Source: a virus
Reading direction: 5' to 3' (one strand)
IMG/VR virus record: IMGVR_UViG_3300044622_001111
Location: 1-28,790 of that record
DNA length: 28,790 nt
Shown: positions 24,502 to 27,429 of the stretch, piece after piece
Position numbering within the stretch: position 1 is the stretch's first letter
Layout of the letters: each line of letters opens with the position of its first letter
Notes under the pieces: model-generated
Told to the model about the DNA's origin: nothing
The model's database searches: none
Seen by the model: only the letters and a program-made list of their open reading frames with translations
Position numbers and translations under genes: made by a program

Positions 24502-24530
24502 TTGACTTTCGTTTGTGTTATGGATACCAT
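24502..24530 (+). promoter_or_regulatory. Promoter for genes 24565-25378
   Basis: TTGACT (24502-24507), 17-bp spacer (24508-24524) and TACCAT (24525-24530). The -10 region is part of a different palindrome, TATGG-ATA-CCATA (24519-24531), so it may respond to another factor than the TGTGTW elements. The transcript would start around 24538, about 27 bases before the ATG at 24565. Confidence 0.6.
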
Positions 24531-25024: not shown

Positions 25025-25378
25025 ATGAACTTTGTAAAATTTACAGAAACCCCAAAAAAAACTTTATATTGCACTGTAAATCCTAGAGGAGTTATATATC
25101 TTAATATAGGTATAAAAAAAGAATTTTCTTTAGAAAAAACCAAGTTTGCAGTGCTTTACCATGATTTGGAAAATAAGCTTTTTTGTATAGAGTTTATTCG
25201 CGACAAAACTGAGGAATACTTATATAGAGTAGTAAACCATGAGTCAGGATCTTATATTAGCGCAATGAGTTTTGTAAGGTTTTTGGGAATTTGCAAAGAA
25301 AAAAAAACAATGTTTCCCGTTAAAAAAGATGGTGATAATCGTATTATTGTAGATTTTAGTGGTGCTGAGACAATCTAA
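25025..25378 (+). CDS. Unknown early protein ahead of the replication leader
   Basis: 117 residues, ATG 25025 with AAGAAAGGAAA at five to six bases. Beta-rich protein: KTLYCTVNPRGVIYLNIGIKKEF, FAVLYHDLENKLFCIEFIRDK, LYRVVNHESGSYISAMSFVRFLG and RIIVDFSGAE suggest a small mixed alpha/beta domain. No catalytic motif or family was recognised. It lies 13 bp after the previous gene, in the same transcript, and 261 bp before the replication gene, an interval holding a promoter and structured leader. Confidence 0.5.
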   Translation: MNFVKFTETPKKTLYCTVNPRGVIYLNIGIKKEFSLEKTKFAVLYHDLENKLFCIEFIRDKTEEYLYRVVNHESGSYISAMSFVRFLGICKEKKTMFPVKKDGDNRIIVDFSGAETI

Positions 25379-25384
25379 AACCAC

Positions 25385-25413
25385 TTGACTTTTCTGTTAG
25401 TGTAGCATACCAA
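25385..25413 (+). promoter_or_regulatory. Promoter of the replication unit
   Basis: TTGACT (25385-25390), 17-bp spacer (25391-25407), TACCAA (25408-25413), putting the transcript start near 25420, at the beginning of the structured leader. Spacer length and -35 match the other promoters. The TGTGTW-N5-TACACA element is not present, so control may differ. Confidence 0.65.
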
Positions 25414-25417
25414 CAAC

Positions 25418-25639
25418 ATGGGGCTAGGCAGGCCAGCCGAAAGCCCAATTCTTCCTTCCTCGGGACGGGTTGCCCTAAAAAAGATGGTGACTGCGTAGCG
25501 GGTGCCTTCTGTTTCCGGGACAAGGAAATGTGTTCCAGCCAAAAATGCCGTGGCTAGAAGGGAAGTAATTAGCCCTTTGAAAAGTTATCGTTCGCCTGCC
25601 ACGGCATTATTTTGAACGAAACAGAACGAAGGAAACCCC
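25418..25639 (+). ncRNA. Structured leader RNA before the replication gene
   Basis: About 220 bases between promoter and the ATG at 25640, visibly richer in G+C than the genes around it. Elements: a 5' hairpin GGGCT-A-GGC with GCC-GA-AGCCC (25421-25446); two mutually exclusive small hairpins (TTTCC/GGAAA at 25512-25516 and 25524-25528, or GGAA/TTCC at 25524-25527 and 25533-25536); a perfect 11-bp stem AATGCCGTGGC/GCCACGGCATT (25544-25554 with 25598-25608); in its loop AAGGG/CCCTT (25558-25562 with 25573-25577). TCGTTC (25588-25593) can pair with either GAACGA copy at 25614-25619 or 25624-25629, making an H-type pseudoknot. No known RNA family was recognised. It may act in translation control, as part of the origin, or both. 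Confidence 0.5.
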
Positions 25640-26497
25640 ATGAAAAAGAGTTTTATCCTGTATCAGGACTACGAACAGCACATCCAGTTGCTAACGGATG
25701 AACAGGCTGGGAAACTTTTAAAAGCCATTTTTTTATACAATCAGGGTCATGATGTGGAAATGGAACCCATCGTGCAGATGGCATTCAGTTTTATCAAAGT
25801 GAACCTTGATAGAGACATGGAAAAATATGAGTCCGTGAAAGAAAGAAACAAGATCAATGGTTTAAAGGGTGGACGCCCATCAAAAACAGAGGAACCCAAA
25901 GAAACCCAAAATAACCCAGTGGGTTTATCTGGGTTAGAGTCGGTTAATTTAGAAACCCAAAATAACCCAAAAAAACCTGATACTGATACTGATACTGATA
26001 CTGATACTGATACTGATATTTTAAAAAAGAAATCTATAAAGAAAAAAGCTGAATCGACAGCGTTGGTTTGTAAAACCATAACGCCTGTGAGTTTTCGATT
26101 AGCCCCCATCAAAAGCACTACGCTGGAACCCCACTACAGGGACGACCAAGAGTTCATGGCGTTTTGGGAGATGTATCCCAGAAAGCGCAGGGGTGATCCG
26201 CACGCGGCGTACAAGACTTGGCAGGAATTAATTATTTCCGGTGAGGTGAGTACCGAGGCGATTATGCAAGGGTGCCACCAATATGCCAACAGCCGTGAAG
26301 GCTCTGGTCAATACGCCCAAGGATGCCAGAGATGGCTTAACGACTACGGATGGATGAAAAACTACACAACCCAAGGAGACCCACATGCAAAATTTAACCC
26401 AGTACAAACCATCATCAACCTCAGAGACACAGGAGGAGAACTTAAGGAAGGCATTGATTACACTGTCATTTGTGGTGAACGTGTCCTCAACTACTGA
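25640..26497 (+). CDS. Replication initiator-like protein with DUF6291-type N-terminus
   Basis: 285 residues; start ATG 25640 with GAAGGAAA six bases before. Residues 1-90 (SFILYQDYEQHIQLLTDEQAGKLLKAIFLYNQGHD, IVQMAFSFIKVNLDRDMEKYESVKERNKINGLKGGRPSK) fit the DUF6291 domain found at the start of phage replication proteins. Residues about 90-135 are a flexible linker (EEPKETQNNP, then (DT)6). The C-terminal part (EFMAFWEMYPRKRRGDPHAAYKTWQEL, ANSREGSGQYAQGCQRWLNDYGWMKNY) has the FW-x-x-YP-R/K-K pattern plus late WL-x-x-x-W seen in phage O-like and primosome-type replication proteins. The linker is encoded by a DNA region that may be the origin. Role: origin recognition and loading of host helicase, by analogy with lambda O. 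Confidence 0.7.
   Translation: MKKSFILYQDYEQHIQLLTDEQAGKLLKAIFLYNQGHDVEMEPIVQMAFSFIKVNLDRDMEKYESVKERNKINGLKGGRPSKTEEPKETQNNPVGLSGLESVNLETQNNPKKPDTDTDTDTDTDTDILKKKSIKKKAESTALVCKTITPVSFRLAPIKSTTLEPHYRDDQEFMAFWEMYPRKRRGDPHAAYKTWQELIISGEVSTEAIMQGCHQYANSREGSGQYAQGCQRWLNDYGWMKNYTTQGDPHAKFNPVQTIINLRDTGGELKEGIDYTVICGERVLNY
25893..25969. repeat. Phased AACCCA iterons: candidate replication origin
   Basis: AACCCA occurs at 25893, 25903, 25913, 25954 and 25964, and its complement TGGGTT at 25920 and 25930. Spacings within each group are exactly 10 bp. As 10 is not a multiple of 3, the copies fall in different reading frames, so they are not due to a repeated peptide. An AT-rich stretch follows (26017-26048). 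Iterons within the initiator gene followed by AT-rich DNA is the lambda ori layout. Confidence 0.6.
25979..26014 (+). repeat. Six tandem copies of GATACT
   Basis: A 36-bp run of GATACT x6, followed by a seventh unit with one change (GATATT, 26015-26020). It encodes Asp-Thr x6 in the linker of the replication protein. Six bases equal two codons, so slippage changes linker length in steps of two residues without frameshift. Confidence 0.9.
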
Positions 26498-27394: not shown

Positions 27395-27429
27395 TTGACG
27401 GTGGTTTGTGTTTGTGTTATGCGTACACA
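27395..27429 (+). promoter_or_regulatory. Promoter and operator for the 3' small-gene cluster
   Basis: TTGACG (27395-27400), 17-bp spacer (27401-27417) and TATGCG (27418-27423). The element TGTGTT-ATGCG-TACACA (27413-27429) overlaps the -10 box, the same type as at 21069-21085. The first gene starts at 27448 with AAGGAGG before it. Confidence 0.7.

Follow-up and report, generated by a model that had tools for sequence, protein, structure and literature searches.

Two int-alpA-like RNAs in tandem, one with a candidate antisense loop, in the leader of a probable phage replication gene

In the 28,790 nt stretch of viral DNA analysed here (the window), a leader precedes a gene starting at nt 25640, and a six-base loop within it is complementary to two identical sites just in front of the start codon. 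What kind of RNA is encoded here, and does it act on the gene that follows? A reading made from the sequence alone had described a 5′ hairpin, alternative small hairpins and an 11 bp stem-loop of no known RNA class, proposed to form a translational switch on a replication initiator gene. The leader was found instead to hold two RNAs of one build in tandem, both resembling int-alpA RNA. The downstream one (element 2) is probably a cis-encoded antisense or pseudoknot repressor of translation of the replication gene. The features are listed in Table 1.

Table 1. Features of the leader and the gene behind it (window coordinates).
Feature	Position	Strand	Basis
Promoter-like block, TTGACT-N17-TACCAA	25385..25413	+	read by eye; putative
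Element 1, int-alpA-like three-way-junction RNA	25419..25477	+	models R1, R2
Element 1, P1	25419-25424/25472-25477	+	
Element 1, P2	25427-25429/25436-25438	+	
Element 1, P3	25443-25446/25467-25470	+	
Element 1, loop AATTCTTCCTTCCTCGGGAC	25447-25466	+	
Spacer between elements	25478..25543	+	only in tandem relatives L002, L007, L008 and their duplicate loci (leader comparison, BLAST)
Element 2, int-alpA-like RNA	25544..25608	+	R2, R1, fold z -3.36
Element 2, P1 (11 bp stem)	25544-25554/25598-25608	+	
Element 2, P2	25557-25562/25573-25578	+	
Element 2, junction GAAAA	25579-25583	+	
Element 2, vestigial P3	25584-25585/25594-25595	+	
Candidate antisense loop TCGTTC of element 2	25588..25593	+	sequence; class-wide loop/site coupling
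Site 1, GAACGA, complement of element 2 loop	25614..25619	+	class position +1..+20 after P1, z 16.5
Site 2, GAACGA, touching Shine-Dalgarno	25624..25629	+	class position +21..+38, z 8.7
Shine-Dalgarno-like AAGGAA	25629..25634	+	sequence
Putatively controlled gene, DUF6291 protein, probable replication initiation/primosomal	25640..26497	+	Pfam, PHROG

Anatomy of the leader and the gene behind it

The 11 bp stem, its TCGTTC loop and the two GAACGA copies, which stand 10 bp apart, lie exactly where the sequence-only reading had placed them. The arms of the stem, AATGCCGTGGC and GCCACGGCATT, are exact reverse complements (read directly and recomputed). These features exceed chance: when the leader was shuffled with its dinucleotides kept, a perfect inverted repeat of at least 11 bp arose in only 4 of 1000 cases, and shuffling of the 31 downstream bases gave two copies of a loop-complement 6-mer in 46 of 100,000. 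The G+C-rich composition against AT-rich neighbours was likewise borne out (51%; upstream 33%, downstream 39%). As a whole, the leader has an unremarkable folding energy (z -1.37 versus shuffles); taken alone, the hairpin of element 2 folds better than every one of 200 shuffles.

The picture of one hairpin with small alternatives had to be redrawn. What had been described as a 5′ hairpin is a genuine structure, a second RNA (element 1) built like the one with the 11 bp stem, a relationship that had gone unrecognised. The 11 bp stem is also real, but it forms P1 of a three-way junction rather than a simple stem-loop.

The gene behind the leader matches Pfam PF19808 (DUF6291; E 3.2e-27) and, weakly, primosomal and replication initiation proteins in PHROG (E 7e-11 to 1e-5), making the earlier description as an initiator likely, though unproven. 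Its product differs from that of a related phage (L003:3386-4210) in an unrelated N-terminal part, while the C-terminal parts are almost the same, which suggests an exchange of leader and N-terminal domain in phage recombination. A 6-base tandem repeat (GATACT, nt 25980–26020) encodes an Asp-Thr run in the linker of the DUF6291 protein.

Relationship to int-alpA RNAs

Contrary to the view that the leader matches no known class, Rfam and model searches identified a related one, int-alpA RNA (RF02996). The Rfam model matched element 1 only, at 13.4 bits, below the gathering cut-off of 35.8 bits; element 2 was not listed by this search of the leader at E ≤ 10. For comparison, RF02996 gives 38.1 bits with a wider relative (L013), about 35 bits with two others (L014, L020) and 28.6 bits with a sibling (L047). 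As neither window element reaches the cut-off, they are called int-alpA-like and not members of the family.

A pattern scan found the build of element 1 in 35 viral stretches and seven bacterial genome contigs, and a second pattern, drawn from the 11 bp stem region, matched at least 120 stretches. Two models were made. The first (R1) was made from the pattern set after removal of the window clade; since the patterns derive from the window, its scores are partly circular. To remove this circularity, R2 was made from Rfam-found int-alpA elements alone, with no window-derived sequence, using RF02996 matches in genomes sampled from the two classes of the Buttiauxella (22 of 185 genomes) and Anderseniella (5 of 190) contigs. 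In the alignment of the R2 set (A2), 92.8% of the cells are paired, compared with 68.5% after shuffling and 34–52% when the pairing is slid, and 15 of the 17 pairs show changes on both sides, which supports the three-way junction. In a further alignment, A1, the way in which the sequences were chosen biases the co-variation of two P1 pairs, and this alignment does not serve as main evidence.

When R2 was run over the whole window with filters off, element 2 (23.6 bits, E 5.5e-4, match 25547–25605) and element 1 (22.8 bits, E 8.6e-4) were the best and second-best places, the next having an E-value of 0.58. R1 gave 36.5 and 24.1 bits for elements 1 and 2, with the next place at E 0.39; the E-values of both models rest on a short calibration. 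Because R1 agrees with R2, and recovers 32 of the 42 Rfam-found loci, the pattern set and the Rfam set look like one class.

Both window elements have the three-way junction of int-alpA RNA and its conserved junction bases (CUAG, GAAAA and (C/U)UG). The class plan further includes a C-rich P3 loop, a purine site complementary to it just after P1, and a second such site at the Shine-Dalgarno of the next gene. This loop/two-site trait, a feature of Rfam-found members established in the present analysis and not an Rfam criterion, is present in element 2 and missing from element 1. Element 2 departs from int-alpA RNA in its long P2, its two-pair P3 and a loop that is not C-rich, and the window differs also in its sub-threshold scores and in carrying two elements in tandem. 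The family is named for its location between an integrase and an alpA gene; here the next gene is the DUF6291 replication gene, and neither Pfam nor PHROG gives a match for the upstream gene (at 25025).

To our knowledge, no function of int-alpA RNA has been demonstrated, and a search for papers gave only a list entry. Two members of the class have close relatives in named phages (Enterobacter phage Tyrion, Edwardsiella phage GF-2 and Acinetobacter phage TRS1), where either no feature or just a protein gene is annotated at the element. A nucleotide search with the window leader gave no match among named phages, and exact copies of the element 2 core were not found beyond three known relatives.

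Coupling of loop and sites, and control of translation

In most Rfam-found loci, P1 is followed by a short linker rich in pyrimidines, then by one purine site, by another at the Shine-Dalgarno, and by the start codon. Coupling between loop and sites was measured by swapping downstream regions between elements and scoring loop complements of at least six bases. These occur in 79% of own pairs versus 18% of swapped pairs in the Rfam set (n = 38), and in 73% versus 12% in the pattern set, the window clade excluded (n = 48). The observed coupling was reached in none of 10,000 permutations, which take the elements as independent although they are related. Because the swapped controls also contain Shine-Dalgarno sequences, the coupling is not generic anti-Shine-Dalgarno complementarity.

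Across 89 distinct loops, complements are concentrated in the first 20 bases after P1 and, less strongly, between +21 and +38, and fall to background between +39 and +60 (z -0.7; the z values here and in Table 1 are a guide, for the same reason of relatedness). Upstream complements sought across the class were not above chance (z -1.3). By position, the two GAACGA copies of the window are the class's two downstream sites. The earlier proposal that the loop pairs with either copy, the second at the start region, finds strong support in the class-wide co-variation of loop, site 1 and site 2.

In element 2, site 1 starts six bases past P1, and the loop can form 6 bp at either site with equal energy (about -8 kcal/mol). 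Both GAACGA copies are kept in the three tandem relatives (L002, L007 and L008) though surrounding bases vary. P3 of element 2 is reduced to two pairs, and the pairing shows no co-variation of its own because the family consists of only four near-identical leaders. Across the wider window clade, a change of loop is accompanied by a change at both sites (L003-type, L006 and L009). The same is seen within single genomes, where phages with two separate elements have matching sites for each loop. Five single phage contigs (L019, L044, L085, L087 and L175) carry two elements whose loops differ and which are separated by more than 1 kb, and the sites match their own loop wherever both leaders were read.

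The start codons of the class lie mostly about 30–45 bases past the GGC/GCC core of P1. Products checked behind the elements include DUF1376 and HTH_36/DnaD-like replication proteins, antirepressor-type proteins (Rha, P22_AR) and HNH nucleases. That the gene behind the window leader is replication-related, and that other members precede replication and antirepressor genes, speaks for control of the replication gene. HNH-type nuclease genes are often directly behind an element (L013, L014, L019 and L164), as if nuclease and RNA were travelling as a unit.

Inverted and direct repeats are common at replication origins, and those of the leader adjoin a probable initiator gene, so they could be read as DNA-level binding sites for the initiator. 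That explanation is highly improbable given the G-U pairs in the stems, the strand-specific anatomy, the constant place before a start codon ahead of unrelated genes (replication, antirepressor, HNH) and the complementarity of the loops to their own Shine-Dalgarno regions.

A loop complementary to the ribosome-binding region, repeated in about 90 distinct phage and prophage elements, is most likely a built-in antisense off-switch. In the window, the TCGTTC loop would base-pair with site 1, just below the stem, and with site 2; occupation of site 2 would keep ribosomes off the gene at 25640, and such repression may restrain lytic replication in an immunity-like manner. The loop could act in cis, as a released RNA in trans, or in both ways, for example by occupying site 1 of its own molecule while another molecule binds site 2. 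Several observations count against this explanation: the whole leader folds no better than shuffles, both elements score below the Rfam cut-off, element 2 has a two-pair P3 and a pairing that shows no co-variation within its own family, and the pairing is 6 bp. The translational switch proposed earlier is upheld as to the pairing of one loop with two sites, while two-state switching in cis is still conjectural.

A switch acting purely in cis, which comes near to the earlier proposal, would have the loop on site 1 (start free) or on site 2 (start blocked) of the same molecule, tipped by a signal. The fixed linker favours such a cis pseudoknot: site 1 keeps a near-fixed distance after P1 throughout the class, which trans antisense would not need, and it is coupled more tightly than site 2. 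Several elements, however, have no site at all. Two of them (L109:3035-3093 and L171:3157-3215) have an intact loop and no matching site downstream, and their loop fits leaders found ahead of Rha-type genes elsewhere (contigs L125, L147 and L161). Element 1 of the window likewise lacks its sites. These cases favour trans antisense, and two well-studied analogues also act in trans (PMC5320573, PMC4825925), so that a purely cis switch is rather doubtful.

The opposite extreme, a purely trans-acting immunity RNA, would be released by termination or processing to silence the same leader in incoming phages, with pairing in its own molecule incidental. The site-less elements with conserved loops, the distinct loops of distinct elements within one phage, and the design parallels with C4 (PMC5320573) and P4 CI (PMC4825925) speak for it, as does a U-rich stretch directly after P1 (T up to 67% per position across the class). 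This stretch is compatible with partial termination, no more; at least six T in the eight bases after P1 are found in just 25% of elements, so a terminator is not general, and the fixed spacing argues for pairing in cis. Action exclusively in trans is accordingly about as unlikely as action exclusively in cis, and repression of the start region by the loop of element 2, by either route, is preferred.

C4 and P4 CI, antisense RNAs acting in lysogeny (PMC5320573, PMC4825925), are the nearest worked examples, although their structures are other than those of the window elements. C4, known from phages P1 and P7, is cut from a transcript in which its b′ loop covers part of a ribosome-binding site (PMC5320573). 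C4 (RF01695) shares three stems with the window RNAs and has target sites just downstream (a2 and b2, with b2 near the icd start), but it pairs through two different loops and has additional upstream sites (a1 and b1), whereas the window class uses one loop and two copies of one site, with none upstream. Processing by RNase P and action in trans are further traits of C4. An identity with C4 was considered first and rejected: the window leader has no RF01695 match at E ≤ 10, while the c4 control of phage P1 scored 68.8 bits.

The P4 CI RNA (seqA/seqB/seqC) lies in a leader ahead of replication genes and, as in the window, one pairing stretch is complementary to two sites in the same transcript; one of these P4 sites precedes CI and the other follows it, and the outcome is premature termination of transcription (PMC4825925). 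In the window both sites are downstream, at the start region, with none upstream. A P4 CI homologue was rejected, as R1 and R2 had no significant match in P4. IsrK of prophage Gifsy-1 (RF01394) is a phage leader RNA that is both a small RNA and part of an mRNA (PMC4825925); its structure is different, and the Rfam search found no match to it in the window leader.

Int-alpA RNAs have been catalogued as a structure, and the coupling of one loop to two sites suggests a direct function for them, in antisense control of the translation start ahead of phage replication, antirepressor and HNH genes.

Element 1 and the tandem arrangement

Transcription is predicted to start at or adjoining the 5′ end of element 1, downstream of a promoter-like block. 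TTGACT and the ACCAACAACATGG end are conserved in most close relatives (leader comparison); owing to its weak second hexamer, the block was absent from the output of a consensus scan. Similar blocks occur at three places in the window (24502–24530, 25385–25413 and 27396–27424), each ahead of a plus-strand gene group and each consisting of TTGAC, about 17 bases, TACC or TATG, and then an ACAACA-like sequence.

In IMG/VR, genes related to the downstream gene are preceded by leaders with a common 5′ element (GGGGCTAGG, CCGAAAGCCC, loop, CGGGTTGCCCC) corresponding to element 1. The loop of element 1 is that of the L003-type phages, whose leaders carry both matching sites (-15.9 kcal/mol). In the window leader this site pair is missing, and the spacer and element 2 are in its place. 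The loop has a 7-base match to the window start region (GAAGGAA, 25628–25634; -9.5 kcal/mol) that is incompletely conserved in the tandem relatives L002, L007 and L008. A search for trans sites across the window gave several matches of 7–9 bases, with no clear two-site leader. As its loop fits the site pair of related phages, element 1 may act in trans.

The tandem, scored as two R1 matches in one leader, was found only in the window's phage clade among the loci searched with R1. One speculative and rather unlikely interpretation is a two-specificity immunity device: the replication leader would have switched to a new loop and site set (element 2 with GAACGA), and the old element 1 would have been kept with its promoter as a trans RNA silencing the replication leaders of sibling phages that have the old sites. 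If so, the loops would be interchangeable RNA immunity types, and the tandem in this clade allows one to ask whether phages use them in this way.

A reading frame across the spacer (ending CFRDKEMCSSQKCRG) lacks a start codon and has no clear homologue among the compared loci, and is treated as probably chance or a remnant. Upstream of the promoter, two relatives (L002:4480-4546 and L006:4618-4684) carry a third copy, which is degenerate and scores weakly (7.7 and 7.0 bits); the GGACAAGGAAATGTGTCC-like hairpin behind it is similar to the spacer that separates the two window elements.
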